Source: Anaerobium acetethylicum (GTDB taxonomy: Bacteria; Bacillota; Clostridia; Lachnospirales; Lachnospiraceae). Taken from it: a stretch of 64,000 nucleotides of DNA. The position numbers and the translations under genes were made by a program. The stretch covers positions 1 through 64,000 of the forward strand of contig NZ_FMKA01000017.1 in NCBI RefSeq assembly GCF_900096945.1. The letters run 5' to 3'. This document shows positions 14,985 to 38,959 of the stretch, piece by piece. Position 1 is the first letter of the stretch. Each line of letters starts with the position of its first letter. The notes beneath the pieces are model-generated. The model saw nothing but the letters and a program-made list of their open reading frames with translations, did not search any database and had not been told where the DNA came from.

Positions 14985-15242
14985 TTATGATTTAAAAATT
15001 CTGTTAATATTTTTCCAACTGCAATATTGCTCAATATTTTTTAATAATTCATCCGTTTTATCAGCATGTATGATTAGCTCAACATTGGAAGCGTTATGCA
15101 GGGTAATTACTCCGAGTAAAGATTTTGCATCCACGTAATAGCTGCCACAATGCAAATCACATTCATAATCATATTTATTCAAGATATTTACGAACATTAC
15201 TATTTCCTTTAAATCCCCTAATTCAACTGATACTTTCGTCAT
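14985..15242 (-). CDS. HPr-like protein lacking the phosphorylatable histidine
   Basis: An 85-residue protein resembling the HPr domain of the phosphotransferase system. The Ser-46-region motif is clear (DAKSLLGVITL), as is the C-terminal helix (DKTDELLKNIEQYC). The N-terminal segment that normally carries the catalytic His (GIHARPA) is absent and replaced by VELGDLKEIVMFVN, so it cannot pass phosphate by the normal route. It may be regulatory, like Crh. The ATG at 15242 follows GAAAG; the ORF track uses a GTG three codons earlier. It stands alone between the scar region and the CMD gene. Confidence 0.65.
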   Translation of the reverse strand: MTKVSVELGDLKEIVMFVNILNKYDYECDLHCGSYYVDAKSLLGVITLHNASNVELIIHADKTDELLKNIEQYCSWKNINRIFKS

Positions 15243-15361
15243 ATAATTCACTTTCTTTTATGATTTTAAATTTTCTTTTAAATTTAGAATATTCATCTGG
15301 CTATCATTCAATTTTATTGTAATCGTGAAACCCAGGAAATTATTCGGGACAGTATTTATAT

Positions 15362-15517: not shown

Positions 15518-15913
15518 CTAATTTTCTTCCAGATCCACCGGCTCAAACATATCAAGTGTTTCCAGGGCAGGTAGCAGCTTGCTGACGCCGCAGGTGAAGA
15601 AAATCATACGGATTACTTCAAATATTTCATCCATTGTAGCCCCGTTTTCAAGAGCCAGTTGAGCATGAACTTTCATTGTGGTATCTGTTCCGGTTGCCAT
15701 GCCGATAGCCATAACGATTAATTCACGGTATTTCTTTGGAATAGAAATATCGCTTTTGTTGCAGTTTATATATTGCTGTAAAAAAGCATTTACAAGGTTT
15801 GGATCATTTCCCATTACCCGGTGGGAATCAAGCAGAGAACCACCTCGGGCAATCTTTAAATCTTCAAGAATTTTTTGGGAACGAGCCAGCTTTTCAAAAT
15901 TCATCTGTTTCAT
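15518..15913 (-). CDS. carboxymuconolactone decarboxylase (CMD/AhpD)-family protein
   Basis: A 131-residue all-helical CMD-family protein. The conserved block YRELIVMAIGMATGTDTTMKVHAQLALENGATMDEIFEVIRM is present, followed by FFTCGVSK. Family members act as peroxidase partners, lactone decarboxylases or uncharacterised enzymes. The AhpD CxxC pair is not present, only single cysteines, so peroxidase activity is doubtful. The ORF track start is too long; GGAGG lies before the ATG at 15913 (MKQMNFEKLA). It starts 13 bases after the OadA-like gene and shares its operon and regulator. Confidence 0.8.
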   Translation of the reverse strand: MKQMNFEKLARSQKILEDLKIARGGSLLDSHRVMGNDPNLVNAFLQQYINCNKSDISIPKKYRELIVMAIGMATGTDTTMKVHAQLALENGATMDEIFEVIRMIFFTCGVSKLLPALETLDMFEPVDLEEN

Positions 15914-15926: not shown

Positions 15927-17327
15927 TTAATTAGTTTGATACTTTGTGCGTAAAAAATCCAATGCATAACTCGGAAACATTGCATAAGTCAGAATATCCT
16001 CGTCGGATTTTGCAAGTGCGCCAAGTTCATTTTTTGCAGTTTCAAATCCAGGTTCCAGCATATCGGCAGGTTTGTTCATGTTTGGCTTGTCGCTGCCAAG
16101 TGCTTTTTCTAAAAGTTCCGAAGATATAGGACCTGGGGGCATTCCATACATGCCGCGGCAGTAATCTCTCAGCTCCTTACTCATTAAGGAGTAGCGCTTG
16201 CCGGTTATTACATTGGTTGTAGCCTGAGCACCGCATATCTGGCTTGATGGAGTGGCAAGGGGAGGATATCCCATGTCGGCACGTACCTGGGTGACCTCTT
16301 TCAGGATTTCCGGAAGCCTGTCATACAAGTTCATGGCGGTCAACTGACTTTCTAAACTTGAGAGCATTCCGCCTGGAACTTGATGTTCTAAGCAGTCGAC
16401 ATCGACACCGATCAATTTAGTCTCATACTCTGCATATTTCTTTCGTAAAATTAGAAAATCATCATTGATGGACTTAAAATGTCCAAGCTCGATTCCAGGA
16501 TCACGGCTTGTGCCTTTTAAAGCAGACAGGAAGCTTTCGATTGGAGGATGAGCCGGTCCCATGGACATTGAAGAGACGCACACGTCTATTCCGTCCACTC
16601 CAGCCCGAATTGCCTCCCAGTAAGCCATTTCGGCCATTCCGCCAGTACAGTGGCAGTGGAGATGAACTGGAATCTTCAATTTTGCCTTTAAAGCAGAAAT
16701 CAATTCATATGCAGCCTGTGGTGTCATTAAACCTGCCATATCTTCAACATGCATAAGGGAAGCCCCCAGTTTTTCCTGCTCTAACGCATTCTGAACAAAT
16801 ATATCGGTAGTATGGAAGGGACTGATATTATACTGAACAGAACCTTCGATTTTTTTTCCAGCCTTCTTTACTGCCTTAAAAGCAGATTCACAATTTCTCA
16901 AATCCTGTAATGCATCAAAAATTAAAAATATATCAATACCGGCCTCAGCGGCCTTTTCTACAAATTTTTCTACAATATCGTCTGGATAAGCTTTATAACC
17001 TACTAAATTTTGTGCGCGAAGAACCATCTTTAGCGGGGTCTTCTTGACATATTTCTTGAATTCTCTAATCCTATCCCAGGGATCTTCTTTTAAAAATCTG
17101 ACTGCAACATCAAAAGTTGCACCACCCCACATTTCAATACTATCATATCCGACCTGATCCATGCGGGTCAGAAGCGGAGCCATATCGGCAGTGGTCATAC
17201 GGGTTGCCAGTAAAGACTGCTGTCCGTCACGAAATTCAACACTGTTGAATTTCAAAGGGGTGCCGGCATTTATAAAGTCTGCTGCACCGATTCCATCGGG
17301 ATATTTTGTTCTTTTTGTCCAAAACAA
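15927..17327 (-). CDS. OadA/PycB-like carboxyltransferase-fold enzyme with altered active site
   Basis: A 466-residue protein aligning along its whole length with the carboxyltransferase domain of oxaloacetate decarboxylase alpha and pyruvate carboxylase (WGGATFDVAVRFLKEDPW, LRAQNLVGY, VPGGMLSSLESQL). Metal ligands Asp34 and the HLHCH pair (222-226) are kept. The Lys that is carbamylated and binds metal in the family motif IKDM(A/S)G is Glu195 here (VEDMAG). No biotin-carrier domain is attached and no oadB/oadG is nearby. A biotin carboxyl transfer role is therefore doubtful; a metal-dependent C-C lyase, aldolase or decarboxylase is more likely. The start is TTG after AAAGGA. A near-perfect promoter and an operator shared with the 18.9 and 31.3 kb promoters precede it. 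Confidence 0.78.
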   Translation of the reverse strand: MFWTKRTKYPDGIGAADFINAGTPLKFNSVEFRDGQQSLLATRMTTADMAPLLTRMDQVGYDSIEMWGGATFDVAVRFLKEDPWDRIREFKKYVKKTPLKMVLRAQNLVGYKAYPDDIVEKFVEKAAEAGIDIFLIFDALQDLRNCESAFKAVKKAGKKIEGSVQYNISPFHTTDIFVQNALEQEKLGASLMHVEDMAGLMTPQAAYELISALKAKLKIPVHLHCHCTGGMAEMAYWEAIRAGVDGIDVCVSSMSMGPAHPPIESFLSALKGTSRDPGIELGHFKSINDDFLILRKKYAEYETKLIGVDVDCLEHQVPGGMLSSLESQLTAMNLYDRLPEILKEVTQVRADMGYPPLATPSSQICGAQATTNVITGKRYSLMSKELRDYCRGMYGMPPGPISSELLEKALGSDKPNMNKPADMLEPGFETAKNELGALAKSDEDILTYAMFPSYALDFLRTKYQTN

Positions 17328-17405: not shown

Positions 17406-17427
17406 AACGTTATACTAAATCGTAATA
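17406..17427. promoter_or_regulatory. operator O1 of the LacI regulon
   Basis: Reads AACGTTATACTAAATCGTAA. It shares 13 identical bases (AACGTTATACTAA) plus a CG two bases later with sites at 18903 and 31311. It lies immediately downstream of the -10 of the OadA-like gene, the position expected for repression. The likely binder is the LacI protein encoded at 17591-18604. Confidence 0.8.
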
Positions 17428-17590: not shown

Positions 17591-18604
17591 CTACAGGGTA
17601 AAACTTTCCCGAAGGATTACTTCGGCATCTACCATGTGATGGATGGGACTAATATGATTGCTTTCTAATATTTTTTTTACGGTATCAATAACCAAATGGC
17701 CGATCTTGGCATTTGGCATTTCTATTACACTTAGAGAAGGGATACAAAATGCTGTGGTTTCCGTTTCTAACATTCCAATTGTAAGAATCTCGATATCCTC
17801 TGGAATGCGCAAATGATGTTTATGGAAGGTATGTAAAGCGCCGATTGCCATGGAATCAGAATCAAAAAAGACTGCCTTTGGAGCATTCGAAAGGCTGCAG
17901 ATTTCTTCGGCTGCCTGAGCGCCACCGGTGACAGTACCTGGTCCTTTGATGATATGTTCGGAAGACACATTGATGCCGACCTGGGAACATGCGTATAGAA
18001 AAGCCTGTGTACGAAGGCCAGTTGCTACGTAAGACTGACTCGAAGAGACAACCATTACTTCGGAATACCCTTTTTTACGGAATAGATCAGCTACCTGAAA
18101 TCCGATTTTTTGGTGATCTGTCCGGACTGTGGAGAACTGTTCAGACTCTCGGTTAATCAGAATGATGGGCATATTAGGCTTCAAAGATTCCAGATATGCA
18201 ATGTCACGATTGGAAGCAGCACCGATAATTGCAATGTTATAGCTGTTATTGATGATAGAGGAAGCGTCGCGCTCTAAGAAATCGTTCTCGTATGCCTGGA
18301 CGATGAATTCGCAAAGGAAATTCTGTGTCTTTATTTCCTTCTGCAGCGCATTCAAAAAGGAGGCAAGGATTGAATTACGGTCGTCAAGCGGCCAGAAAAA
18401 TGCAATTGTCGGCTTTGATGCATCCTGGGAGCGGAGCCTCCTGGCGCTGAGGTTTGGCTGATAAGATAAGTCTTTCATAACGGCAAATACCCGTTCCTGA
18501 GTCTGGGCAGAAATCCCTCTTTCTTTGGACTTGCCGCTGATAATAATTGAGACTGTAGTGGGAGAAACCCCTGCTAGTTTTGCTACATCCTTAATGGTTG
18601 CCAT
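17591..18604 (-). CDS. LacI-family repressor of the 2-hydroxy acid regulon
   Basis: A 337-residue regulator. The LacI helix-turn-helix is at residues 1-25 (MATIKDVAKLAGVSPTTVS), the hinge region around 45-60, and a periplasmic-binding-like sensor domain follows (PTIAFFWPLDDRN, then GAASNRD, then VFFDSDSMAIGALHTF). It lies between the two promoters it probably controls, that of the OadA-like operon on the left and of the PFOR operon on the right. Each promoter carries the AACGTTATACTAA operator just after the -10. Its own start is preceded by A/T-rich DNA with no copy of the operator. The effector is probably the imported hydroxy acid or a CoA/phosphate intermediate (inference). Confidence 0.9.
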   Translation of the reverse strand: MATIKDVAKLAGVSPTTVSIIISGKSKERGISAQTQERVFAVMKDLSYQPNLSARRLRSQDASKPTIAFFWPLDDRNSILASFLNALQKEIKTQNFLCEFIVQAYENDFLERDASSIINNSYNIAIIGAASNRDIAYLESLKPNMPIILINRESEQFSTVRTDHQKIGFQVADLFRKKGYSEVMVVSSSQSYVATGLRTQAFLYACSQVGINVSSEHIIKGPGTVTGGAQAAEEICSLSNAPKAVFFDSDSMAIGALHTFHKHHLRIPEDIEILTIGMLETETTAFCIPSLSVIEMPNAKIGHLVIDTVKKILESNHISPIHHMVDAEVILRESFTL

Positions 18605-18863: not shown

Positions 18864-18938
18864 TTGACAATGGAATAAAAATAAATTATGGTTATACACA
18901 TGAACGTTATACTAACACGTTAAACTAACACGTTAAAC
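18864..18938 (+). promoter_or_regulatory. promoter and operator O2 of the PFOR operon
   Basis: TTGACA (18864) and TATGGT (18887) are spaced by 17 bases. From 18903 follow AACGTTATACTAACACGTT and a second overlapping copy of ACTAACACGTTAA, giving a duplicated half-site. The operator covers the expected transcription start. The rest of the 353-base gap 18605-18957 is A/T-rich with no other feature seen. Confidence 0.85.
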
Positions 18939-18957: not shown

Positions 18958-21900
18958 ATGAGCAAATTTGATGATCTTAACTGGGAAGAAGGAGCATCAA
19001 TCGAAGGAAGGATGAAAAGCAAAATGAGCAAAATGATAAAGAGGGCAATGGATGGCAACGAAGCGGCAGCTTATGCTTCTTATGCATTTACGGAGGTAGC
19101 TGCCATTTATCCAATTACACCATCTTCACCGATGGCCGAGCTGGTAGATAAATGGTCGGCAAATGGGATGAAAAATATTTTTGGACAGCAGGTAAAATTA
19201 GTCGAAATGCAGTCGGAATGTGGAGCGGTCTCTGCGGTACATGGTGCTTTGGATGGAGGCGTACTTGCAACGTCCTATACGGCATCACAGGGTCTGATGC
19301 TGATGATTCCGACTATGTACCGTATTGCAGGACAGTTAAAGCCGGGCGTTATCCATGTGGCATCCAGAAATGTGGCAACACATGCAATCTCGATATCTGC
19401 TGAGCATTCTGATGTTATGGCGTGCCGTCAGACAGGTTATGCATTAATGGCATCCTCAAGTGTGCAGGAAGCAATGGATTTAGGTGCAGTTTCCCATCTG
19501 GCAGCAATAAAAGGGCATGTGCCATTTTTACATTTCTTTGATGGATTCAGGACTTCCCATGAAGTGCAGAAGGTGGATTGTCTCGATTATGATGATCTGG
19601 CGAAAATGGTAGACCAGAATGAATTAAAAAAATTCAGGGAGAATGCATTGAATCCGGAACATCCGGTACTTCGTACTACGGGTCAGTATTCTGATACGTA
19701 TTTCCAGAGCCGCGAGGCATGTAATTCCTATTATGATGCATTGCCGGATATCGTGGCAGAGTATATGGATCAGATTAATGAAGTGACCGGACGCAGCTAT
19801 AAGCCGTTCAACTATTACGGTGCGGCGGATGCAGAGTATGTAATAGTCGGAATGGGTTCATCAACGGGCTGTGTACAGGAAAGCATTGACTATTTATTAG
19901 AAAAAGGCGAAAAAGTAGGATACATGGAAGTTCATCTGTATCGTCCATTCTCTGCAAAATATTTCTTAAGCCAGTTACCGGATACAGTCAAAAAAATGAC
20001 TGTGGCGGACAGAACGAAAGAACCAGGTGCAGTTGGCGAACCTCTGTATGAAGATGTATGCTCTGTTATTCTGGAATCCGAAAGAGCGATTGATGTACTT
20101 GCCTGCAGATACGGTCTTGCAAGCAAAGAGTTTACACCGGCCCTGGTTATTGCCATGTACGAAAACATGAAGCAGGACACACCAAAGAATCACTATACAA
20201 TCGGTATCAATGATGACGTGACCGGATTATCCCTTCCTTATGGGAAAGAAGTAGATACAGTTCCTGAGGGAACCATAAGCTGCAAGTTCTGGGGACTTGG
20301 ATCGGATGGTACAGTTGGTGCAAATAAAAATACCATCAAGATTATCGGTGACCACACGGATATGAACGTTCAGGCATACTTTGAATATGATGGGAAAAAA
20401 TCAGGCGGTGTTACCCGTTCTCATCTGCGATTTGGCAAAAAGCCGATCCGCTCCACTTATCTGGTAAACCGGGCAGACTTTATCGCTTGCCATAATAAAT
20501 CTTATCTGGAGCGATATGATATTCTGGCTGATGCCAAAGAAGGCGCCAATGTCCTAATTACCTGCGACTGGAAAGAGGAAGAGCTTGAAAAACACCTGAC
20601 GGCGGAATTCAGGAAAGCGGCAGCTGAAAAGAAAATCCATCTTCATATTATCGATTCGACTGCAATCGCAAAAGAATTAGGCTTAGGAAGCAGAACAAAC
20701 ACGATCCTGCAGGCTGCATTCTTTAAAATCACAAATATCATTCCAATTGAAGAAGCAGCAGATTACATGAAGAAAGCAATTTATAAGTCATACGGCAAAA
20801 AAGGCGAAAAAATCGTCAATATGAATTATGCAGCAGTTGATAAGGGTATTGAGATGGTAAGAGAAGTAACTGTTCCTGCTGAATGGGCGGATTTGAAACT
20901 CGAGCCAGTTTCTATAGATGAATCATTGCCAAAGTGGATCAAGAATATACAGATTCCAGTAAATGCAATGAAAGGCGATTCCATCCCCGTAAGTGCATTC
21001 ATGGATCTTCCGGATGGCACGATGCCGCAGGGGACCTCAAAATATGAGAAACGCGGCATTGCTGACAACGTTCCAGTATGGGATAGCAGCAAATGCATTC
21101 AATGTAACCAGTGTGCTTACGTGTGCCCACATGCAGCAATTCGTCCTTTCTTATTAGATAAAGAAGAGGCATCAAAAGCTCCGGCTGAATTCGTGACGGT
21201 ACAGGCTGCCGGAAAAGGCATGGAAACATATCAGTACAGAATACAGACAGCAGTGCTTGACTGTACAGGATGTGGAAGCTGCGCAAAGGTATGTCCTTCA
21301 AAAGATAAAGCTCTTACCATGAAACCGTTGGATGAGAACAGGCATGAAGAAGCAAACTGGGAATATGCAGCAGCATTATCGAAAAAGGAAAATCCGATGA
21401 GTGTTTCTACTGTAAAAGGCAGCCAGTTTGAACAGCCCCTGCTGGAATTCCCGGGAGCATGCCCAGGATGTGGCGAGACACCGTATGCAAAACTCCTGAC
21501 CCAATTATACGGAGACCGTATGTATGTGGCAACAGCAACCGGATGCTCCCAGGTATGGGCAACAAGCTTCCCGTCATTCCCATATACAACAAACGAAAAT
21601 GGTAAAGGTCCTGCAGTAGGCGGTTCTCTATTCGAAAACAATGCAGAGTATGGTATGGGCATCTGGCTTTCAGTAGAGCAGCAGAGAGAAAAATTATTAG
21701 GAAAGGCAGAGGCTCTTGTAAAAATAACCACCAACGAAGAGTTAAAGAAAGCAGCATCAGCATGGATGGAAAGCTACAATGATGGAGCTGTGACGAAGGA
21801 AGCAAGCGAAGCCTTCAAAGCAGTTTTACTGAATTATGAGCCGGCAGAAGAAGATGCTCCAGTCATGGTATTCACCGATGGTACGCAGGAGGAACGCAGA

Positions 21901-22620
21901 TGCTGCGAGTCAGTGGCGGTAGAAGAAGCTTCACTCATAGCAGAAATCAGGGAAAATGCAGAGTATCTGACCAAGAAATCCGTATGGCTGTTTGGCGGAG
22001 ACGGCTGGGCCTACGATATCGGATATGGCGGACTTGATCATGTTTTAGCAAGCGGTGCAAACGTGAATGTCATGGTATTCGATACGGAAATTTATTCCAA
22101 TACAGGCGGTCAGGCTTCAAAATCAACTCCTACAGGGGCAGTTGCACAGTTCGCGGCGGCAGGCAAAAGAAGCAAGAAAAAAGACCTTGGAATGATGGCT
22201 ATGAGTTATGGCGATGTTTATGTAGCCCAGGTTGCGATGGGAGCCAGCCAGTCACAGTTCTTAAAAGCGGTACAGGAGGCAGAAAGCTATGACGGGCCAT
22301 CTCTGATCATCGCATATGCACCATGCATCAGCCATGGCTTACGCTGTGGAATGGAAGATGTACAGGGAGAAATAAAACGTGCAGTCGAAGTAGGATACTG
22401 GCAGATGTACAGGCATAATCCAATGCTTGCTGAAGAAGGAAAAAATCCATTTATTCTTGATTCCAAAGAACCAACGGGAGATTTTCAGGAATTTCTTCGC
22501 GGTGAAGTCCGTTTTTCTTCTCTTGAGAGAACATTCCCTGATGTTGCTGAAACATTATTTAAGCAGACGGAAAAAGAGGCGAAAGCCAGATATGCAAAAT
22601 ATAAAGCGCTAGCACAATAA
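18958..22620 (+). CDS. nifJ: pyruvate (2-oxoacid):ferredoxin oxidoreductase, single-chain NifJ type
   Basis: Oxidatively decarboxylates a 2-oxoacid to acyl-CoA and CO2 and reduces ferredoxin. The domain order is standard: N-terminal PFOR domain (AIYPITPSSPMAE), middle domains, two [4Fe-4S] motifs (CIQCNQCAYVCP and CTGCGSCAKVCP near residues 710 and 765), and the TPP domain with CPGCGE (near 837) and GGDGWAYDIGYGGLDHV. At 1220 residues it is slightly long. An extra 22 N-terminal residues precede the usual start, and the ATG at 19024 (after GAAGGAAGG) is a reasonable alternative start. Being first in an operon with Ptb, Buk and an IPMDH-like enzyme suggests that its substrate here may be 2-oxobutyrate or a branched 2-oxoacid as well as pyruvate. 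Confidence 0.92.
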   Translation: MSKFDDLNWEEGASIEGRMKSKMSKMIKRAMDGNEAAAYASYAFTEVAAIYPITPSSPMAELVDKWSANGMKNIFGQQVKLVEMQSECGAVSAVHGALDGGVLATSYTASQGLMLMIPTMYRIAGQLKPGVIHVASRNVATHAISISAEHSDVMACRQTGYALMASSSVQEAMDLGAVSHLAAIKGHVPFLHFFDGFRTSHEVQKVDCLDYDDLAKMVDQNELKKFRENALNPEHPVLRTTGQYSDTYFQSREACNSYYDALPDIVAEYMDQINEVTGRSYKPFNYYGAADAEYVIVGMGSSTGCVQESIDYLLEKGEKVGYMEVHLYRPFSAKYFLSQLPDTVKKMTVADRTKEPGAVGEPLYEDVCSVILESERAIDVLACRYGLASKEFTPALVIAMYENMKQDTPKNHYTIGINDDVTGLSLPYGKEVDTVPEGTISCKFWGLGSDGTVGANKNTIKIIGDHTDMNVQAYFEYDGKKSGGVTRSHLRFGKKPIRSTYLVNRADFIACHNKSYLERYDILADAKEGANVLITCDWKEEELEKHLTAEFRKAAAEKKIHLHIIDSTAIAKELGLGSRTNTILQAAFFKITNIIPIEEAADYMKKAIYKSYGKKGEKIVNMNYAAVDKGIEMVREVTVPAEWADLKLEPVSIDESLPKWIKNIQIPVNAMKGDSIPVSAFMDLPDGTMPQGTSKYEKRGIADNVPVWDSSKCIQCNQCAYVCPHAAIRPFLLDKEEASKAPAEFVTVQAAGKGMETYQYRIQTAVLDCTGCGSCAKVCPSKDKALTMKPLDENRHEEANWEYAAALSKKENPMSVSTVKGSQFEQPLLEFPGACPGCGETPYAKLLTQLYGDRMYVATATGCSQVWATSFPSFPYTTNENGKGPAVGGSLFENNAEYGMGIWLSVEQQREKLLGKAEALVKITTNEELKKAASAWMESYNDGAVTKEASEAFKAVLLNYEPAEEDAPVMVFTDGTQEERRCCESVAVEEASLIAEIRENAEYLTKKSVWLFGGDGWAYDIGYGGLDHVLASGANVNVMVFDTEIYSNTGGQASKSTPTGAVAQFAAAGKRSKKKDLGMMAMSYGDVYVAQVAMGASQSQFLKAVQEAESYDGPSLIIAYAPCISHGLRCGMEDVQGEIKRAVEVGYWQMYRHNPMLAEEGKNPFILDSKEPTGDFQEFLRGEVRFSSLERTFPDVAETLFKQTEKEAKARYAKYKALAQ

Positions 22621-22630: not shown

Positions 22631-23752
22631 ATGAGCACATTTATTGAAAGGATTTTGGGGAAAGAAGCAGGTTCCGTTGCTACGATTATGGCAGATTATG
22701 TGGTAATCAATGATGGTATTTCAAATGCTGCAGTGGATGAGATATCTGCTGTGGGAAATCAGGAGAAAGTATGGGTCATCCATGATCATGATGTACCGAC
22801 CGGAAGTACCGAGGCAGCTGGTATTTTAAGAAAGAATCTGGAATTTGCAACAAGGAATGGCTGTCATTATGTGCAGGCACAGGGAGTGGGATACCAGTAC
22901 ATGCTGAATGACATCATCAAGCCGGGAGAAATCATAATTGGCGGTGGAACCCATGGTAGTATCTTTGGTGCGAAAAAAGCATTGGGAATCAATGTAAGCA
23001 TTCCGGAACTAGCCCGCATCGCAGAGACAGGACGCTACAGTGTGATCGTGCCAGAGACTGTATCGGTTACTTTAACAGGAAATCTGCAGGAATCTGTCAG
23101 TGTGATGGATGCTGCAATGGATTTCCTTACAAAAGCCTCAGACGTAAAAGGAAAAGTAATTGAATTCGGCTGCCCGTCACTTGATGATCATCAGAAAGCA
23201 GTTCTCTGCAGCATGGCTTGTATGACAGGAGCTTACGCAGCAGTGATTGTTGAAGAACAATCTGAACAGGCAGTCGTCCTTGATCTGACAAACGTAAAGC
23301 CTATGATCATGATGCCCTGTGCCAGCCGTTCAGAACAGGACCAGGCAAAAATCGCTGAAAAATCGGTACTGGAAGGAACTGAACTTCAGGCTGGGCAGAT
23401 TGGAGGCTATACCGGAGGCACCATAGAAGAGTTGAGAACGGCAGCCGGGCTTATCAAAGATAAAAAGCTTGCCCGAGGATTCCGGTTAAGCATTTGTCCT
23501 GCAACCAGCAAAGACTACATACAGGCAATGGAAGAAGGAATTATCACAAAGTTTATTGATTATGGCGCACAGATTCAGGCACCGGGGGATCACAGCGTTG
23601 TAACGCAGGGAGCAGGAGCGATGGGCCATAATGAGAAACTTTTAACAACTGGTCTTTATACGTTTGCGGGCGCAATGGGTTGTGAAGATGCTGAAGTATA
23701 TACAGCTTCCGTTAATTCTGTAATTGCGGCGTCATATACAAAACTAATTTAA
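22631..23752 (+). CDS. aconitase/LeuC-family protein lacking the Fe-S cluster cysteines
   Basis: A 373-residue relative of the isopropylmalate dehydratase large subunit. The segment GFRLSICPATSKDYIQAMEEGIITKF lines up with GLRFIVCPATNKVFKDAIEAGYIRTF of the next gene. The cluster ligands are gone: the GSCTNG motif is IGGYTGG here, and the CGLCCG motif is replaced by HSVVTQGAGAMG. The DSHTTT motif became GGTHGSI. HDHDVPT is kept from the substrate-binding DH-x-x-P. It cannot be a normal [4Fe-4S] hydro-lyase. It could be a cluster-free isomerase or a partner subunit of the LeuD-LeuC fusion encoded 12 bases downstream. AGGAG precedes the ATG, and it follows PFOR by 10 bases. Confidence 0.75.
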   Translation: MSTFIERILGKEAGSVATIMADYVVINDGISNAAVDEISAVGNQEKVWVIHDHDVPTGSTEAAGILRKNLEFATRNGCHYVQAQGVGYQYMLNDIIKPGEIIIGGGTHGSIFGAKKALGINVSIPELARIAETGRYSVIVPETVSVTLTGNLQESVSVMDAAMDFLTKASDVKGKVIEFGCPSLDDHQKAVLCSMACMTGAYAAVIVEEQSEQAVVLDLTNVKPMIMMPCASRSEQDQAKIAEKSVLEGTELQAGQIGGYTGGTIEELRTAAGLIKDKKLARGFRLSICPATSKDYIQAMEEGIITKFIDYGAQIQAPGDHSVVTQGAGAMGHNEKLLTTGLYTFAGAMGCEDAEVYTASVNSVIAASYTKLI

Positions 23753-23764: not shown

Positions 23765-25567
23765 ATGGATAAGAAATTCAGTGGTAAAATATGGAAGTTT
23801 GGAAATGACATTGATACGGATACTATAATACCAGGCAGACGCGGGACGATCCCGACGATTGAAGAGATGAAGCAATATGCTTTTGAATTATTGAAGCCGG
23901 AATTCGGTTCAACGGTTCAGGCAGGAGATATCCTTGTTGCAGGTACTAATTTTGGCTGTGGATCCAGCCGTGAGCAGGCGGCAACTGTGCTTTCGGCAAA
24001 TGGAGTACGCTGTATTATTGCAAAGAGTTTTGCAAGGATTTTTTTCCGCAACGCATTTAATAGTGGAATTCTTCTGCTCCAGTGTGATGGCATACAGGAC
24101 GTCTGCGACGGCGGAGATATCGTCACTGTTGATATTGATGCAAAAACAGTCAGTGTAAATGGAAAGACATTTCCAGTCGGCGAGGTTCCTGAAAACCTGT
24201 TTAATATAGTAGCAAACGGCGGTCTGATTGAAGACACCAAAAAGCGAATAGCGGAAGGAATCAAGAAATTAGAAATCACGCCGCTGACTGATAAAGAACG
24301 CCGTAAGAGCGGATATACCCTTGTGGAGAAAATACTGAAGAACAATGCAGGAAAGCATCATGTTGAACCAGGAGATATCGTGATTACAAAACCAGACATG
24401 TTTATGGTCCATGACATCTATACCACGTATCTTTTAGATACCATGAAGAAGATCGGAGCAGATAAAATCGATGATCCGGATAAAGTGACGATCGTATGGG
24501 ATCACTGCATGCCGACTGCCGTAGCAAAGAATGACTACGATCATTATCATGCCGGCTTGGAGCTTGCAAAGCTATACGGTATCAAGAAACTGCATATCGG
24601 TGAAGGCATCTGTCACAGTATCATGCATGAAAAGAAATATGCAAGACCGGGAGAAGTTGCAACAGCAACTGACAGCCATACGACAACTTACGGCGGAGCG
24701 GGAAATTTCTGCTCAGGAATTGGCACGGCAGAGATGGCCGCTGCTCTGATTACCGGAGAACTTTGGTTTAAAGTTCCGAGTGCCATTAAAATCGTGCTAA
24801 ACGGACATCTGAAGGAAGGCGTTTTATCAAAAGATATTATCCTGAAGATTCTGGGCGATATAAAGGCAGATGGAGGACAATATAAATCTCTTGAATTCAC
24901 AGGAACTGCAGCACATGAAATGAGCATGATGGCACGTTTCACAATGGCAAATATGGCTTTAGAAGCGGGCGCAAAATGCGGATTGTTTGAAGCAGATGAA
25001 AAGACAGCCGAATATTATGGAATGTCTCTTTCTGAAATTGACTGGGTCCGTATGGATGACGATGCAAAATATGAAAAAGTACTGACCTACAATGTCGATG
25101 AATTAGAACCACAGTTATCATGTCCTCAGGGCGTCGACAATGTTCATCCGATCCATGAAATTCTTGGGACCAAGATTGATGAAGTATACTTAGGCAGCTG
25201 TACAAATGGAAGTTTAGAGGATCTGGCAATTGCAGCAAAAATGATGGAAGGTAAAAAAGTGGCATATGGCCTCCGTTTCATTGTGTGTCCTGCAACGAAT
25301 AAGGTGTTTAAGGATGCAATTGAGGCTGGCTATATCAGGACCTTCATAGAAGCTGGTGGAGTAGTCGTCCATCCGTGCTGCGGACTTTGCTGCGGCATGC
25401 CATACGGCTTAATGACAGATGATGAAAGGATCCTGTCTACGGCAAACCGAAACTTCATTGGACGCCAGGGCACAAAGAAGACCCTCAGCTACCTTTCAAG
25501 TCCTGCAGTGGCAGCTGCAACAGCAATCGCAGGGGTCGTCACAGACCCACGAACCATGATAAACTAA
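23765..25567 (+). CDS. LeuD-LeuC fusion hydro-lyase (3-isopropylmalate dehydratase-like)
   Basis: A 600-residue fusion in small-then-large order. Residues 1-165 are the LeuD swivel domain (NDIDTDTIIPGR, GTNFGCGSSREQA). Residues 190-600 are the LeuC catalytic part, with DHCMPT, ATDSHTTTYGGAGNF and the three cluster cysteines in GSCTNG (Cys479) and CCGLCCG (Cys539, Cys542). It should isomerise a 2-hydroxy acid through an unsaturated intermediate, as in isopropylmalate, citramalate/methylmalate, maleate or dimethylmaleate chemistry. Mitochondrial-type aconitase has the opposite order, though AcnB also places the swivel domain first. It is co-operonic with an IPMDH-like dehydrogenase. A biosynthetic leucine role is unlikely because no leuA is present and the neighbours are fermentative. 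Confidence 0.88.
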   Translation: MDKKFSGKIWKFGNDIDTDTIIPGRRGTIPTIEEMKQYAFELLKPEFGSTVQAGDILVAGTNFGCGSSREQAATVLSANGVRCIIAKSFARIFFRNAFNSGILLLQCDGIQDVCDGGDIVTVDIDAKTVSVNGKTFPVGEVPENLFNIVANGGLIEDTKKRIAEGIKKLEITPLTDKERRKSGYTLVEKILKNNAGKHHVEPGDIVITKPDMFMVHDIYTTYLLDTMKKIGADKIDDPDKVTIVWDHCMPTAVAKNDYDHYHAGLELAKLYGIKKLHIGEGICHSIMHEKKYARPGEVATATDSHTTTYGGAGNFCSGIGTAEMAAALITGELWFKVPSAIKIVLNGHLKEGVLSKDIILKILGDIKADGGQYKSLEFTGTAAHEMSMMARFTMANMALEAGAKCGLFEADEKTAEYYGMSLSEIDWVRMDDDAKYEKVLTYNVDELEPQLSCPQGVDNVHPIHEILGTKIDEVYLGSCTNGSLEDLAIAAKMMEGKKVAYGLRFIVCPATNKVFKDAIEAGYIRTFIEAGGVVVHPCCGLCCGMPYGLMTDDERILSTANRNFIGRQGTKKTLSYLSSPAVAAATAIAGVVTDPRTMIN

Positions 25568-25582: not shown

Positions 25583-26479
25583 ATGATAAAAAGTTTTGAT
25601 GAGTTAAAAGAGACCCTCAGAAAGATGCCTGAAAAACGTAAAGTAGCGGTAGCGCCTGCACAGGATGCACATACCCTGGAGGCAATCGTGAATGCTGCAA
25701 GAGACGGCATGGTAACTCCGGTCCTGATTGGCAGAGAACCAGAGATCAGAGCGATCCTGGAAGAGTTAGGAGCTTCTCAGGAAGAGATGCAGATTATCCA
25801 TATCGAAGATAAAACTGCATGTGTGCAGAAAGCAGCTGATATGGTGAAATCCGGAGAAGTAGATTGCATTATGAAGGGGAAGATTGAAACAGGAGACCTG
25901 ATGAAGGTATTGGTCAATAAAGAGACCGGTATCCGCAAGAACAGCACCATGAGCCTGCTGGCCTTTATGGAAAGCCCCAATTACCATAAGGTATTTGCAA
26001 TAACAGATGTAGGTCTTCTGGTATATCCGACTAAGGAGCAGAAGAGGGCAGCAATAGAGAACGCTGTTTCCGCATTTCATGCGCTGGGAGTGGAAGAGCC
26101 CAAAGTAGCCATTGTTGCAGCTATAGAAAAAATGAATCCGAAAATGAAAGAAACGGTAGACGCAGCCGAAATCAAGGCGGAAGGCGTGGAGGGCTGCATC
26201 ATCGAAGGTCCGATCAGCTATGACCTCGCAATGGATCCGGAATCAGCACCCCTCAAAGGGTACGAAAGCCCTGTAGCAGGCGATGCGGACATACTGGTAA
26301 TGCCGGATATCATAAGCGGAAACGTAGCAGCAAAAACAATCACCACCATCGGCGGGGGACGTACCGGCGGAGTTGTGCTCGGAGCGCAGGTACCTGTCTT
26401 GCTGGTATCACGTTCAGCAAGTGCAGATGATAAATATATGTCAATCGTGCTGGCAGCACTAATAGGCAAAAACAATTAG
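25583..26479 (+). CDS. ptb: phosphate acyl (butyryl)transferase
   Basis: A 298-residue enzyme converting acyl-CoA and phosphate to acyl phosphate and CoA. Family segments are visible: IMKGKIETGDLMKVLVNKETGIR, FAITDVGLLVYPT, EGPISYDLAMDPESA and TIGGGRTGGVVLGAQVPVLLVSRSA. The length and sequence match Ptb rather than Pta. Ptb enzymes accept C3-C5 straight and branched acyl-CoA. It pairs with the butyrate-kinase gene 1.4 kb downstream in the same operon, together yielding ATP from the acyl-CoA made by PFOR. Nothing odd is seen in the active-site regions. Confidence 0.9.
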   Translation: MIKSFDELKETLRKMPEKRKVAVAPAQDAHTLEAIVNAARDGMVTPVLIGREPEIRAILEELGASQEEMQIIHIEDKTACVQKAADMVKSGEVDCIMKGKIETGDLMKVLVNKETGIRKNSTMSLLAFMESPNYHKVFAITDVGLLVYPTKEQKRAAIENAVSAFHALGVEEPKVAIVAAIEKMNPKMKETVDAAEIKAEGVEGCIIEGPISYDLAMDPESAPLKGYESPVAGDADILVMPDIISGNVAAKTITTIGGGRTGGVVLGAQVPVLLVSRSASADDKYMSIVLAALIGKNN

Positions 26480-26493: not shown

Positions 26494-27828
26494 ATGAGTA
26501 AAAAAATCAATTTCAATGTATGCGGATTATCTTTCAAAATTTTCATTCCATTTTTTATAGTAGTTATGATCACAACCTATATGGGATTCATGCCCACGGT
26601 AAAAATCTTCTCAAATGAAGCCGGGGAATATATAGCATCCAATTATATCGGTACCATTGCGTTTTTGATGGCAGTGGGAGGTCTGTTTTTCTGGCTTGGC
26701 AATACGATTCCTATTTTCAATAATTATTTAGGCGGAGCATGTCTGTTGCCATTATTAGGAACATCATTTATGAATTTCATGGGCTGGATTCCGGAGGAAC
26801 TGGTGAATGGTACTGCTGTCTTAATGGGTGGCGGTTTCCAGGATGCCTATATTGCAATGCTGCTAGTAGGATCTATTCTGATCATGGACAGAAAGCTTCT
26901 TCTGGGAGCGACTGCCAGATATATGCCTGTCATTATTGGCAGCCAGGTCTTTGCACTGGGTGCGTGTGCATTGGGTGGATTGATTACTGGAACAAGCGTA
27001 TTTGAAGCTTTATTTTATGTTGGTGCACCTATTATGTCCGGGGGTTCAGGCGGTGCTATGGTTACCCTTCCATCTTTATACAGCGACATTACAGGTACAG
27101 ATATGACTGGCATGGCAGGACAATTCCTTTCCTATGCATCCATATCAAACGTGATAGCGGTTATGATGGCAGCCATTTTCGGAGGCATTACTTCTAAAAT
27201 GAAAGGCGTAAACGGAAACGGTGATATCCTGGTATCTAAGACTGAAAAGGTTATTGAAGAAGGCGAAAAACGTCCGGCAACATCAGGCGACTATGCAGCA
27301 CTTGGTTCGGGAATATTTATGAGCTTCTGTTTTTATCTGGGTGGAAATATTTTAGGCAATCTGCCTGGGTTAAGCGTAATCCCGGGATTGGCCTGGACCA
27401 TTATTCTTGGCATCATCGTAAAGAGCACGGGACTTATGCCTGACAAGATTGCAGATAATACTGTATACTCCATGAATTTTGCTTTAAGAGCGCTTCTTCC
27501 TATGCTGATTGCAGGCATTGGCATCAAATCTTTGAATTTCTCTGCAATAGGAGCCTTCTTTACGGTTGGAGCATTTGTGATTATTTTTCTGGGAGTGTTT
27601 GGAGCATTTCTCGGAGCAGCGGTTTTTGCTAAGTTATTCGGCCTGTGGCCATATGAAGCGGGTGTTACTGCAGGCTTATGCTGCTGTAATATCGGCGGAA
27701 GCGGCGATATTGCAGTACTTTCGGCAGCTAACCGTATGAACCTGTTGGCGTTTGCTTCTATTTCAACACGAATCGGTGGAGCACTGATGGTCATCTGGAT
27801 CGGATTGTTATATCCATTGTTTATGTAA
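26494..27828 (+). CDS. 2-hydroxycarboxylate transporter (2HCT/CitS family)
   Basis: A 444-residue inner-membrane carrier with 11 or so predicted helices. The two family reentrant-loop signatures are visible as MSGGSGGAMVTLPS near residue 188 and CCNIGGSGDIAVLSAANRMNL near residue 395. The family (CitS, MaeN, CimH, CitP, MleP) carries citrate, malate, lactate or citramalate-like 2-hydroxy acids with Na+ or H+, or in exchange for a product. This gene gives the best clue that the operon substrate is a 2-hydroxy di- or tricarboxylate. AGGAGG precedes the ATG. A hairpin follows before the kinase gene. Confidence 0.88.
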   Translation: MSKKINFNVCGLSFKIFIPFFIVVMITTYMGFMPTVKIFSNEAGEYIASNYIGTIAFLMAVGGLFFWLGNTIPIFNNYLGGACLLPLLGTSFMNFMGWIPEELVNGTAVLMGGGFQDAYIAMLLVGSILIMDRKLLLGATARYMPVIIGSQVFALGACALGGLITGTSVFEALFYVGAPIMSGGSGGAMVTLPSLYSDITGTDMTGMAGQFLSYASISNVIAVMMAAIFGGITSKMKGVNGNGDILVSKTEKVIEEGEKRPATSGDYAALGSGIFMSFCFYLGGNILGNLPGLSVIPGLAWTIILGIIVKSTGLMPDKIADNTVYSMNFALRALLPMLIAGIGIKSLNFSAIGAFFTVGAFVIIFLGVFGAFLGAAVFAKLFGLWPYEAGVTAGLCCCNIGGSGDIAVLSAANRMNLLAFASISTRIGGALMVIWIGLLYPLFM

Positions 27829-27909: not shown

Positions 27910-29016
27910 ATGAATTCATATAAAGTATTTACAATCAATCCTGGCTCTACTTCAACAAAAATCGCAATGTTTGAAGGAGATAAGACGGTTTTTTCAAAGA
28001 ATGTGTCCCATGACGCAGAGCGGTTAAAAGAGTTCAAAGAAATCAGCGACCAGTTTGATTATAGAAAAGAAACAATTCTGGAAGAACTGAAAAAAGAAAA
28101 TCTGACTTTAGATGGCGTAGATGCTTTTTCGGCACGCGGCGGCGGACTTGTAAACATCGAAGGTGGTGTTTATCAGATCGGTGAAAAATTGCTGGAGCAT
28201 GCAAGAGCCGGTTTTACGGTAAAACATCCAGCCACCTTAGGGGCACAGCTGGCAGATGCATTTGCAAAAGAATATGGCGGACAGTCGTTTGTCGTAAACC
28301 CACCGGATGTAGATGAGTTCATTGATGTTGCAAGAGTGACAGGGCTAAAGGGAGTATATCGTGAAAGCAGGATACATGCCCTGAACCAGAAAGAAATCGG
28401 GATCCGCTATGGACTAAAGGCTGGCAAAAAATATGAAGACTTAAATCTGATCATCTGCCATATCGGCGGCGGAATCTCGGTTACTGCACACCGTCAGGGA
28501 AAGATGATAGATTCCAATGATATTGCGAATGGCGATGGACCTATGGCGCCGACACGATGCGGACAGCTTCCGGTAAAGGATGTAATTACCATGTGCTTTT
28601 CCGGAAAATTCACAGAGAGGGAACTGCGTGACAAAGTGACAAAAACAGGCGGCTTTGTTGATCATTTAAATACGTCGGATGCCAGGGAAGTTGAGGCAGC
28701 GATGAATAATGGAGATCCTTATGCAAAACTGGTATACGATGCAATGGTTTATCAGATTGGAAAAACAGCAGGTTCCATGGCGGCAGCGCTTCGCGGAAAG
28801 GTAGATGCGATTATCCTGACAGGGGGCATTTCTCATGATAAATATGTAACAGGAAAGCTGAGAGATATGCTTGCTTTTATTGCTCCGATGGAAGTCATGC
28901 CTGGAGAATTTGAGATGGAGGCACTGGCTGCCGGGGCGGTACGTGTTTTATCAGGTGCAGAAGAAGCAAAAAATTATACCGGTGAACCAGTATGGTCTGG
29001 TTTTTCGATAGAATAA
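27910..29016 (+). CDS. buk: butyrate kinase
   Basis: A 368-residue acetokinase-family (ASKHA) enzyme making acid and ATP from acyl phosphate and ADP. The motifs are FTINPGSTSTKIAMFEG at the N-terminus, NPPDVDEFIDVARVTGL (the Buk-type substrate loop), CHIGGGISVTAHRQGKMIDSNDIANGDGPMAPTR and ILTGGISHDKY. The sequence is Buk-like rather than AckA-like, supporting C3-C5 acids as product. AAAGGGAGG lies upstream. It gives the substrate-level ATP step of the operon. Confidence 0.92.
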   Translation: MNSYKVFTINPGSTSTKIAMFEGDKTVFSKNVSHDAERLKEFKEISDQFDYRKETILEELKKENLTLDGVDAFSARGGGLVNIEGGVYQIGEKLLEHARAGFTVKHPATLGAQLADAFAKEYGGQSFVVNPPDVDEFIDVARVTGLKGVYRESRIHALNQKEIGIRYGLKAGKKYEDLNLIICHIGGGISVTAHRQGKMIDSNDIANGDGPMAPTRCGQLPVKDVITMCFSGKFTERELRDKVTKTGGFVDHLNTSDAREVEAAMNNGDPYAKLVYDAMVYQIGKTAGSMAAALRGKVDAIILTGGISHDKYVTGKLRDMLAFIAPMEVMPGEFEMEALAAGAVRVLSGAEEAKNYTGEPVWSGFSIE

Positions 29017-29786: not shown

Positions 29787-30158
29787 ATGGATCTATATGT
29801 GACAAAAATGTCGAGATCAATCATGCCTGCTATGACAAACAGAAATAGTACCTTATTCGGCGGGAAATTATTGAGCTGGATGGATGAAATAGCAGGGATT
29901 ACTGCCGCAAGGTACGCAAACTCCAAGGTTGCTACAGTAGCAATTGAAACTGTGCTGTTTATGAAACCTATCTGCGGGGGGGATTTTATTGATGTTGAAG
30001 GCAGGATACTATCTGTCGGAAAGACATCGCTGCGTGTGATGATAGAAGTAAGCGTGGATAAAGGCAATGGCAGGCGGGAAAATGCAGCCGAAGCCGTATT
30101 TGTCTATGTTGCATTAGATGAAAGTGGAAAACCGAAGAAAGTAGTGGAGGAAATATGA
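29787..30158 (+). CDS. hotdog-fold acyl-CoA thioesterase (YciA-like)
   Basis: A 123-residue hotdog protein. The family block NSTLFGGKLLSWMDEIAGITAARYA, with the N-x-x-G-x-x-x-G...D arrangement, is clear, followed by VFMKPI-like and VEGRILSVGKTSLRV strands. It hydrolyses acyl-CoA. Inside a Ptb/Buk operon it may be a safety valve that frees CoA when kinase flux is limiting. AGGAGGG precedes the ATG at 29787, 12 codons inside the ORF-track start. The stop overlaps the ATG of the dehydrogenase gene (ATGA), indicating translational coupling. Confidence 0.85.
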   Translation: MDLYVTKMSRSIMPAMTNRNSTLFGGKLLSWMDEIAGITAARYANSKVATVAIETVLFMKPICGGDFIDVEGRILSVGKTSLRVMIEVSVDKGNGRRENAAEAVFVYVALDESGKPKKVVEEI

Positions 30159-31237
30159 TTTTAAATATAGCTGTCATCAAAGGAGATGGTGTCGGTCCGG
30201 AAATGATGGAATCGGCACTTGAGATCCTTAAATCAGTATGCAGGCAATTTGAACATCAGTTGAATCTATATCCGGTGATGGCTTCCGGAGAAGCGATTGA
30301 TGCCGTTGGGAATCCGATGCCGGAGGAGTCATTGAAAATATGTATGGAGGCGTCAGCAGTGCTGTTGGGCAATACAGGACTTTCGAAATATCGGAATTCG
30401 CCACAGGAGAAGCGTCCTGAATTTGCACTTATGCGCTTAAGAAAAGAAATGGAAACAACAACGAATATCCGGCCGGTGTGCATTTATCCTGTTTTATCGG
30501 AACTATCGCCTTTGAAAGAACGTATCGTTCAGCAAGGTGTGGATTTTGTGTTTGTCAGAGACATTGCTGGCGGCGTATTCTGCTCGGATAAGGTGAAATC
30601 AGAAGGCGAATTTGGCAAAGAAGCTTATGAATATGAATACTATAATGAAAAAATCATTACGGATACGGCAGCCATCGCATTTGAACTTGCAGGCAGAAGA
30701 AAGAATAAAGTGACCAATCTGGATAAATCAAATGTGTTGGGGAGTTCCAAGCTATGGAGAACCACTGTGCAAGAGGTGGGAAAGCACTATCCGGAAATTG
30801 AGCTGACTCACTGCTATATCGATACGGCAGCCATGAAAATCATAGAAAGTCCAAAAGAGTTTGATGTTATAGTGACCTCCAATCTGTTTGGAGATATCAT
30901 AGCAGATGAAGGAACCCAGATAACAGGGACACCGTACCTGTATGCCTCGGCAGAAGTTGCGAAAAATGGAAAAGGAATTTATACGCCCAATCAGCTTCAC
31001 CATCCGGATGAAACCATGATCGGGCAGCAAATCGTGAATCCTATCGGCATGATAGCAGCTGCGGCAATGATGCTCCGCCATAGCTTTGGGTTGGAGAAAG
31101 AGGCAGCTGCCATAGAAAATGCCATCAGAAAAGCCATTGAGCAGGGCTATCGGACAAAGGATATTGCAAAAGAAGGGGAGCAGTGGCTTTCTACAAAGCA
31201 GATGGGAGAGAAAATCACAGGTCTTCTGGCTTATTAG
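30155..31237 (+). CDS. isopropylmalate/D-malate dehydrogenase-like oxidative decarboxylase
   Basis: A 360-residue beta-hydroxyacid oxidative decarboxylase. The family elements are VIKGDGVGPEMM, GEAIDAVGNPMPEESL, the substrate helix ALMRLRKEME, NIRP, KSNVLGSSKLWR, and the metal Asp segment SNLFGDIIADEG, which in LeuB usually reads NMFGDILSDE. NAD+-dependent oxidation plus decarboxylation of a 3-alkylmalate, D-malate or tartrate-type acid gives a 2-oxoacid for PFOR. The departures from LeuB and the catabolic operon argue for a substrate other than isopropylmalate. It overlaps the thioesterase gene by 4 bases and is the last gene of the operon. Confidence 0.85.
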   Translation: MILNIAVIKGDGVGPEMMESALEILKSVCRQFEHQLNLYPVMASGEAIDAVGNPMPEESLKICMEASAVLLGNTGLSKYRNSPQEKRPEFALMRLRKEMETTTNIRPVCIYPVLSELSPLKERIVQQGVDFVFVRDIAGGVFCSDKVKSEGEFGKEAYEYEYYNEKIITDTAAIAFELAGRRKNKVTNLDKSNVLGSSKLWRTTVQEVGKHYPEIELTHCYIDTAAMKIIESPKEFDVIVTSNLFGDIIADEGTQITGTPYLYASAEVAKNGKGIYTPNQLHHPDETMIGQQIVNPIGMIAAAAMMLRHSFGLEKEAAAIENAIRKAIEQGYRTKDIAKEGEQWLSTKQMGEKITGLLAY

Positions 31238-31270: not shown

Positions 31271-31331
31271 TTGACAATATCACGAAAATAAGTTATCCTA
31301 TAAAAGGAGTAACGTTATACTAAAACGATAT
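31271..31331 (+). promoter_or_regulatory. promoter and operator O3 upstream of the MATE gene
   Basis: TTGACA (31271) and TATCCT (31294) are spaced by 17 bases. The operator AACGTTATACTAAAACGATA starts at 31311, just after the -10, the same geometry as at 17.4 and 18.9 kb. It places the downstream MATE transporter in the LacI regulon. Confidence 0.8.
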
Positions 31332-35520: not shown

Positions 35521-37287
35521 ATGAAAGCAATAATGGTAATGTATGACTCTTTAAACCGAAAGATGCTGGAACCTTATGGATGTGACTGGGTAAAGACCCC
35601 GAATTTCACAAGGCTGGCTGAAAAGTCAGTAACGTTCGACTGCAATTATGTTGGAAGTATGCCGTGCATGCCCGCAAGAAGGGAACTCCACACGGGAAGA
35701 TATAATTTCCTCCACAGGAGCTGGGGGCCAATGGAGCCATTTGATGATTCGATGCCGGAGATGCTCAAGATGAACGGCATTTATACCCATCTGGTTTCAG
35801 ATCACCAGCACTACTGGGAAGATGGGGGATGTACCTATCACAGCAGATACAACACCTGGGAGTGTACGAGAGGCCAGGAAGGAGATACATGGAAAGCCCT
35901 GCCCGAACTGATTGAAGCTTCCCATAGAAAAGGCGGACTTTCGATTTTTGATAAGATGCATAAGCATGACGCAGTAAACCGCAAGTATATTGACGCAGAA
36001 GAAAAGATGCCACAGGCAGTAACCTTTCAGGCAGGACTTGAATTTCTTGAAAAGAATCACGAGGCAGATGACTGGTTCCTGCAGATTGAAACCTTTGACC
36101 CCCATGAGCCATTCTTCACCCAGGAGGAATATAAAAAGCTGTATCCTCATGAATATGACGGCCTCATGAAGGACTGGCCGCCTTACTATTTCGTGACGGA
36201 AGGAGAGGAATCGGTACGACATATGAGATTTGAATATGCAGCGCTGATAACCATGTGCGACAGATACCTTGGTAAGGTGCTGGATTTTATGGATGAGCAT
36301 GACATGTGGAAGGATACGATGCTTATTGTCAACACGGACCATGGCTATCTTCTCGGTGAGCACGGGTGGTGGAGCAAGACGGTAATGCCTACCTACGATG
36401 AAATCGCAAGAACGCCCCTGTTCATATATGATCCGAGGAGCAAAGTCAGAGGCGAACGCCGTGGCATGCTGACCCAGACGATTGATCTTCCGGCGACCGT
36501 TCTCGAGTATTTCAATCTTCCGATTCCGAAAGACATGCAGGGAAAATCGCTCAGGAAGGCGATAGAAGAAAGCGAACCGGTCCGCGACTATGCCCTTTTC
36601 GGGTATCATGAAGGACATACCAATATCACGGACGGAAGATGGGTCTATATGAGAGCGCCGAAAAGTGGAGATGGGCAGCCAATTTATGAATACACCCTGA
36701 TGCCCACTCATATGCGCAGCATGTTCCAGCCATCCGAGCTTCAGGATATCCAGCTGCAGGAACCGTTTGCATTTACGAAGGGCTGCAGGACAATGAAGAT
36801 AAAAGCAGCCGCCGGCATGACGGATCCGGCAAACTATGGTACCAGGCTGTATGATCTGCAGAATGATCCGATGCAGAAACATCCGGTTTATGATATAGAA
36901 AAAGAGACTGAAATGGCCAATCTGATGATACGTGCAATGGGGGAGAATGAATGCCCGCAGGAACGTTTTGCAAAGTTTGGATTTCCGGAAGGAAGAGAGG
37001 TCACAAAACAGGAGGTGGAAGATTCAAACAGAGAGGCGAAAGAAATGCGCATGCCGATAGGTCTTGAGCAGTGCAGCTGGACAGAAGGCGCAGTCAATAT
37101 GTACCATACGCTGCATAAATTCCTGATGCCGGAGAAATCGGAGGAGGTAGTCAGGATGCTGAGAGAAGTGGCAGAAGGAGGAAAAATTGATGAGGCGGAC
37201 ATGATAGAGCTTATAAAGATAGTCGTTCCGGAACAGTCAAGGGAAATGGTCATGTATTTTACACTTTTGAATAGCAGGACAGAATAG
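35521..37287 (+). CDS. Cys-type sulfatase
   Basis: A 588-residue type I sulfatase that removes sulfate esters from a carbohydrate or aryl substrate. The signature C-x-P-x-R is seen as CMPARRELHTGR near residue 49. The first Cys must be oxidised to formylglycine by the anaerobic maturase encoded 3.4 kb downstream. Metal ligands appear in VMYDSLNRKMLEPYG at the N-terminus and in NTDHGYLLGEHGWW near residue 265. The C-terminal part has LYDLQNDPMQ and an unusual helical extension of about 130 residues. No signal peptide is visible, so it probably acts in the cytoplasm on imported sugars, consistent with the GPH symporter next door. The glycan is unknown. Confidence 0.9.
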   Translation: MKAIMVMYDSLNRKMLEPYGCDWVKTPNFTRLAEKSVTFDCNYVGSMPCMPARRELHTGRYNFLHRSWGPMEPFDDSMPEMLKMNGIYTHLVSDHQHYWEDGGCTYHSRYNTWECTRGQEGDTWKALPELIEASHRKGGLSIFDKMHKHDAVNRKYIDAEEKMPQAVTFQAGLEFLEKNHEADDWFLQIETFDPHEPFFTQEEYKKLYPHEYDGLMKDWPPYYFVTEGEESVRHMRFEYAALITMCDRYLGKVLDFMDEHDMWKDTMLIVNTDHGYLLGEHGWWSKTVMPTYDEIARTPLFIYDPRSKVRGERRGMLTQTIDLPATVLEYFNLPIPKDMQGKSLRKAIEESEPVRDYALFGYHEGHTNITDGRWVYMRAPKSGDGQPIYEYTLMPTHMRSMFQPSELQDIQLQEPFAFTKGCRTMKIKAAAGMTDPANYGTRLYDLQNDPMQKHPVYDIEKETEMANLMIRAMGENECPQERFAKFGFPEGREVTKQEVEDSNREAKEMRMPIGLEQCSWTEGAVNMYHTLHKFLMPEKSEEVVRMLREVAEGGKIDEADMIELIKIVVPEQSREMVMYFTLLNSRTE

Positions 37288-37288
37288 G

Positions 37289-37495: not shown

Positions 37496-37509
37496 AGGAG
37501 AAAAATATT

Positions 37510-38877: not shown

Positions 38878-38959
38878 GGAAAGCGCATTGTTATCCCTTG
38901 CAAAGAAAACATTATTTTGATATGGTATATAAAAATGAGTTTCAGAAAGGATCACAAAA

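Follow-up and report, generated by a model that had tools for sequence, protein, structure and literature searches.

How does a protein built like the carboxyltransferase of biotin-dependent enzymes work when the carbamylated lysine of its metal site is replaced by a glutamate and no biotin partner is encoded close by? This question is raised by a gene of Anaerobium acetethylicum located in the window, the stretch of 64,000 nucleotides analysed here, the product of which is referred to as OadA-E. An earlier note on this DNA had placed the gene at positions 15927-17327, which is correct; it is encoded on the minus strand, and the plus strand is full of stop codons in this region. The gene and the codons of its metal site are the following:

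15927..17327, minus strand: OadA-E, an OadA/PycB-type carboxyltransferase-domain protein of 466 amino acids with Glu195 in place of the carbamyl-lysine and without a biotin domain
17226..17228, minus strand: Asp34, a metal ligand kept according to the alignment
16749..16751, minus strand: His193 (codon CAT), likewise specific to the clade and located on the beta strand of Glu195; Cys or Ala in lysine-bearing (K-type) homologues
16743..16745, minus strand: Glu195 (codon GAA); Lys in all K-type homologues
16650..16658, minus strand: His224-Cys-His226, the metal-ligand pair kept according to the alignment

The start codon is TTG, and several orthologs begin with TTG, GTG or ATG at the same MFW. 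A family scan revealed matches to the Pfam families HMGL-like and PYC_OADA, and no models beyond carboxyltransferase and HMGL-like were found. Over the whole carboxyltransferase and PYC_OADA region, OadA-E shares 42-44% identity with the structurally characterised PycB, OadA and transcarboxylase 5S. Its AlphaFold model (pLDDT 89) reaches TM scores of 0.91 to 2NX9, 0.91 to 1RQH and 0.92 to 5KS8, and the range against 5KS8, 2NX9 and 1RQB is 0.90-0.92, which shows the carboxyltransferase TIM barrel plus the PYC_OADA domain. With 585.8 bits, the protein stays below the cut-off of the oadA equivalog model TIGR01108 (756.5), and with 616.6 bits it passes that of the PycB domain model NF006761 (402). 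Its fold and most of its residues place OadA-E in the pyruvate carboxyltransferase superfamily.

In the alignment, Glu195 takes the place of the KDM lysine in 1RQB (K184 of 5S), 2NX9 and 5KS8, so the exchange of lysine for glutamate at the metal site, which the earlier note had read from the sequence, is real. Asp34 and the HLHCH motif with the ligands H224 and H226 are present, as had also been stated; the change of RDAHQ to RDGQQ in OadA-E had gone unmentioned. Three further changes, R135L, Q161E and C193H, are linked to the glutamate, and all of them lie on or beside barrel strands of the predicted model. The residues R33, D34, Q37, D73, R104, Y111, H226 and T359 are invariant in the glutamate-bearing (E-type) and K-type groups alike, and H224 is kept in every E-type protein but one. 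In the pyruvate carboxylase of L. lactis, the cation is coordinated by R533, D534, carboxylated K703, H732 and H734, while R606 holds pyruvate or oxaloacetate and the biotin side contains T867 and S870 (PMC9581989). The alignment assigns R33, D34, E195, H224, H226, R104, T359 and S362 of OadA-E to these positions; the substrate site is therefore retained, and so is the biotin contact, since T359 and S362, whose equivalents contact biotin in pyruvate carboxylase, are both kept. Judged from the sequence, Glu195 would bind the metal. Its side chain falls short of carbamyl-lysine by about three bonds, so that a direct contact would require a shifted metal or the help of H193. The phosphotriesterase homology protein of E. 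coli is a precedent for a glutamate replacing a carbamylated lysine at a metal site; a literature search found no paper on carbamyl-lysine mutants of pyruvate carboxylase.

Relatives were gathered by a scan of 84,980 species genomes plus whole-genome searches. All 27 members of the clade form one group in the tree, with a support of 100/100 and a single K-to-E change. Residue 195 is Glu in 26 of the 27 and Ala in the remaining one (L050), and it is Lys in all 39 proteins outside the clade. A one-strain variant or a sequencing error is ruled out by this clade-wide occurrence, and the alignment that the earlier note had called for gave a clear answer: the glutamate does define a clade of its own, which is tied to an operon of LacI, OadA-E and CMD facing PFOR, with a common operator. 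Clade sequences are approximately 48-84% identical to the window protein and are found in Enterocloster/Hungatella-type Lachnospiraceae, Acidaminococcaceae and other Bacillota, bacteria of the gut and rumen type. A fragment from Sedimentibacter (L016) stops before residue 195, and its N-terminal part looks like a clade member. The distribution is patchy: two of the 397 genomes sampled from the family of A. acetethylicum contain OadA-E, and it is rare class-wide, where an exact motif scan detected it in one of 391 genomes.

The surroundings of the gene in the window are as follows:

15518..15913, minus strand: CMD/AhpD-like protein of the carboxymuconolactone decarboxylase family, lacking the CxxC of AhpD; partner gene a short distance downstream of OadA-E
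17406..17418, minus strand: operator-like site TTAGTATAACGTT upstream of OadA-E
17591..18604, minus strand: LacI-family regulator, a conserved neighbour
18903..18915, minus strand: operator-like site TTAGTATAACGTT upstream of PFOR
18958..22620, plus strand: PFOR (pyruvate:ferredoxin oxidoreductase), divergent operon
22631..23752, plus strand: aconitase/LeuC-like protein, Fe-S cysteines lost
23765..25567, plus strand: fused LeuD-LeuC (LeuDC; aconitase/isopropylmalate isomerase family), Fe-S cysteines present
25583..26479, plus strand: Ptb, phosphate butyryl/acetyltransferase
26494..27828, plus strand: 2-hydroxycarboxylate (2HCT, CitS-like) transporter
27910..29016, plus strand: Buk, butyrate kinase
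30155..31237, plus strand: isopropylmalate-dehydrogenase (IPMDH) family protein, accessory; several related operons lack it

This gene order recurs at almost every main-clade locus, with CMD, OadA-E and LacI on one strand and PFOR, the aconitase-like protein, LeuDC, Ptb, the 2HCT transporter and Buk on the opposite one. An AhpD-type peroxidase role for CMD was rejected on account of the missing CxxC. Copies of TTAGTATAACGTT occur at 17406, 18903 and 31311, whereas 0.01 copies would be expected; the third, also perfect (31311-31323), precedes a MATE efflux gene (31396). A palindromic form of the site is found in OadA-E and PFOR promoters across families and is about 200-fold enriched in those windows, a value that serves as a guide only, since the pattern was built from the same promoters, half-sites were counted twice and some loci share a genome. 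Because both promoters carry this operator-like site, OadA-E and the PFOR operon very likely belong to one regulon. A description of the OadA-E/PFOR gene set was not found in the open-licence literature. The window further encodes an HPr-like protein of 88 amino acids just downstream of CMD (14985-15251), a RACo-type corrinoid activation protein (7555-9798) and, following a second LacI regulator, a sulfatase, a GPH-type sugar transporter and an anaerobic sulfatase-maturating enzyme one after the other (35521-40087).

Some loci deviate from the common pattern. A clade paralog at L050:4426-5829 has Ala195 (ADMAG) and Ser224 and is probably without a metal site; its operon encodes Buk, YczE, a thioesterase, IPMDH and an MBL-fold protein. 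In the clade member at L072:2146-3519, Gln replaces the metal ligand His224 (IEDTAG, HLQCH), and the operon consists of LeuC, LeuD, OadA-E, CMD and a transporter. In the Enterocloster-type metagenome-assembled genome G782 (L048, L049, L050, L096, L097), five genes of OadA type occur along with several paralogous PFOR/LeuCD/Ptb/Buk/2HCT operons, which gives the impression of a fit to different acids. The protein encoded at 22631-23752 has lost its Fe-S cysteines in the operons of Lachnospiraceae and Acidaminococcaceae (GGYTGG, GDHSVVTQG), and the cysteines are kept in the related operons L136, L171, L172, L174 and L175. It could be argued that the whole clade has given up lyase chemistry and that OadA-E now serves in binding or regulation, as a scaffold or as a companion of CMD: the loss of both Glu and His at L050 and the Gln at L072 indicate that the metal site tolerates change, and cluster residues are missing from the adjacent aconitase-like protein as well. 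However, the other active-site residues are invariant across sequences of about 48-84% identity, which argues for catalysis in most members, and we regard a loss of chemistry as highly improbable.

If OadA-E is catalytic, the next question is whether it depends on biotin. In agreement with the absence of a nearby biotin domain reported by the earlier note, no biotin-attachment motif is present near the end of any open reading frame of less than 900 amino acids in the window. The same motif search, near the ends of open reading frames below 900 amino acids, found no biotin carrier in the 28 clade loci; the sole match, AAMKL in L048, is a chance occurrence in a cysteine-synthase-like reading frame and not a biotin domain. 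Among K-type enzymes, the motif is present in 11 of 11 long proteins, and an EAMKM carrier is located next door at two of four short loci (L099 and L051) and was not seen near L052 and L061. The absence of a nearby partner is suggestive of biotin independence. OadA-E could still act as a separate carboxyltransferase subunit, borrowing its biotin carrier from an oxaloacetate decarboxylase complex encoded elsewhere. The genome of A. acetethylicum does hold a complete K-type complex at L099 with oadA, oadB and an EAMKM biotin carrier, many K-type alpha subunits likewise lack a fused biotin domain, and D73, R104, Y111, T359 and S362 are retained in OadA-E. Against such borrowing, none of the clade loci has a biotin partner, the LacI-type operator links OadA-E to a different operon, and the lysine kept by all K-type enzymes is lost. 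Biotin dependence in trans is thus quite unlikely in our view, and OadA-E probably works independently of biotin. Judged by the carbamyl-lysine and the biotin partner, it is neither OadA nor PycB.

Clues to the reaction come from the pathway. The operon ends in PFOR (a VorB-type oxidoreductase in L137) and Ptb/Buk (a CoA-transferase in L136), that is, in the oxidation of a 2-oxo acid followed by ATP formation from an acyl phosphate (Ptb and Buk) or by the CoA-transferase; the 2-oxo acid is consequently made upstream. The VorB-type enzyme of L137 means that the product there need not be pyruvate. IPMDH was considered as the source of this acid and rejected as not belonging to the core, because it is missing from L136-L138 and L171-L174. 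The 2-oxo acid must therefore arise otherwise, and OadA-E is the obvious candidate.

In some related operons, OadA-E is partly replaced by RraA-family genes. L171-L174 carry such a gene with an intact GxVRD motif and neither OadA-E nor CMD within the fetched stretch, and some of the fetched stretches end at contig ends. At L060, L072 and L138, an RraA-family gene lies near OadA-E, and these three loci with both genes weaken the idea of a strict swap. RraA-type HMG/CHA aldolases also decarboxylate oxaloacetate via pyruvate enolate (PMC5065237). The RraA proteins of the operons score below the curated aldolase cut-offs; by analogy, their genes support an enolate-forming lyase chemistry that OadA-E may share.

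Another set of clues concerns the substrate. An aconitase-family hydro-lyase is encoded in nearly every clade operon with enough flank, the transporter belongs to the CitS/2HCT family, the pyruvate/oxaloacetate site is kept in OadA-E, and the A. acetethylicum genome lacks the citF citrate lyase gene. All four observations would fit a citrate- or citramalate-type lyase (or synthase), in which a tertiary 2-hydroxy acid from the aconitase-family enzyme would be split to acetate and a 2-oxo acid, the latter serving as the electrophile on the metal, as in DRE-TIM enzymes. However, an ordinary citrate lyase was found in nine of the 12 genomes tested. Moreover, we know of no CoA site or acetate-activating group in the OadA-type fold, and the substrate loop of the LeuD part of LeuDC reads GRRGT, which we take to be unlike the YLRT/YLVY motifs of known enzymes. 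A lyase or synthase of this type is unlikely, and the citramalate lyase idea of the earlier note found no specific support. A citrate-fermentation island working with an ordinary citrate lyase was also considered; the own genome is without citF and most relatives have it, so that presence or absence decides nothing.

In Acidaminococcaceae, the clusters L073, L074, L075 and L076 consist of genes for a PrpF/OMA-tautomerase-like protein, a YbhJ-type hydratase, a MatC transporter, a lactonase and OadA-E. Sister clusters of this type without OadA-E (L177, L178, L180) carry MmgE/PrpD and IPMDH-like genes. Based on the PrpF-like protein, the hydratase, MatC and the lactonase, the Acidaminococcaceae version is possibly a trans-aconitate pathway; since sister clusters without OadA-E exist, this idea could not fix the reaction of OadA-E.

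We prefer a biotin-free lyase: biotin partners are missing from all clade loci, and in some related operons a gene of the RraA family of aldolases/oxaloacetate decarboxylases takes the place of OadA-E. The earlier guess of a biotin-free lyase, aldolase or decarboxylase remains the best reading on these two grounds, with the kept biotin contacts T359 and S362 speaking against it. In our view, it is about as likely as not that OadA-E uses the pyruvate-carboxyltransferase fold to cleave carbon-carbon bonds as a metal-dependent lyase that needs no biotin. In such an enzyme, the metal (D34, E195, H224, H226 and possibly H193) together with R33, Q37, R104 and T359 would position the pyruvyl end of the substrate, as in OadA. 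Breakage of the C3-C4 bond would yield pyruvate enolate, either through aldol cleavage of a 4-hydroxy-2-oxo acid or through loss of CO2 from oxaloacetate or a similar beta-oxo acid, and the enolate would be protonated with no carboxyl group handed to biotin. The enzyme would act in a LacI-controlled fermentation, in which a hydroxy- or oxo-carboxylate is taken up and rearranged by the LeuDC hydro-lyase; OadA-E, presumably assisted by CMD, would cleave the product, PFOR would oxidise the 2-oxo acid, and Ptb and Buk would make ATP.

How does such an enzyme compare with known systems? With OadA (V. cholerae 2NX9), PycB (5KS8) and transcarboxylase 5S (1RQB), OadA-E shares the fold, the Asp/His/His ligands and the pyruvate contacts; it differs by Glu in place of carbamyl-lysine, by R135L, Q161E and C193H, and by the lack of a biotin carrier at clade loci. 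The HMG/CHA aldolase-oxaloacetate decarboxylases of the RraA family (LigK/ProA) have pyruvate-enolate chemistry as the proposed common step. Their fold, however, is unrelated and the likeness is one of role only: the GxxRD metal motif resides in the separate RraA genes, whereas OadA-E is a TIM-barrel carboxyltransferase protein. DRE-TIM metallolyases such as 4-hydroxy-2-oxovalerate aldolase, citramalate and homocitrate synthase and HMG-CoA lyase have the same HMGL-like TIM barrel and Asp/His/His site, but OadA-E resembles OadA much more closely and has the C-terminal PYC_OADA domain in full. If oxaloacetate is the substrate, the soluble metal-dependent oxaloacetate decarboxylases (Cg1458/FAHD1, malic-enzyme type and ICL-superfamily type) would be functional analogues with different folds. 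The CitF, CitE and ACP subunits that define citrate lyase (CitDEF) are not matched by OadA-E, and citF is absent from the own genome. A 2020 review of the pyruvate/oxaloacetate node distinguishes four dedicated types of oxaloacetate decarboxylase, none of which is a biotin-free OadA (PMC8100219).

OadA-E genes score best against the models for the oxaloacetate decarboxylase alpha subunit and pyruvate carboxylase subunit B and are thus likely to be named accordingly, which would credit gut bacteria with a biotin-dependent reaction that they possibly do not run. Should the glutamate enzyme prove active without biotin, it would illustrate how the exchange of one ligand, with a few linked substitutions, can convert a biotin-dependent carboxyltransferase into a lyase that stands alone. 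The fuller proposal, held slightly less firmly than the lyase assignment itself, is that a branch of the carboxyltransferases may have turned into biotin-free pyruvate-enolate lyases by replacing the carbamylated lysine with an encoded glutamate, and that it may provide the carbon-carbon-cleaving step of an undescribed LacI-regulated fermentation of tri- or dicarboxylates in gut anaerobes (2HCT transporter, LeuDC, OadA-E with CMD, PFOR, Ptb/Buk). If true, Enterocloster/Hungatella-type Lachnospiraceae and Acidaminococcaceae would possess a fermentation of organic acids that has not been described before.
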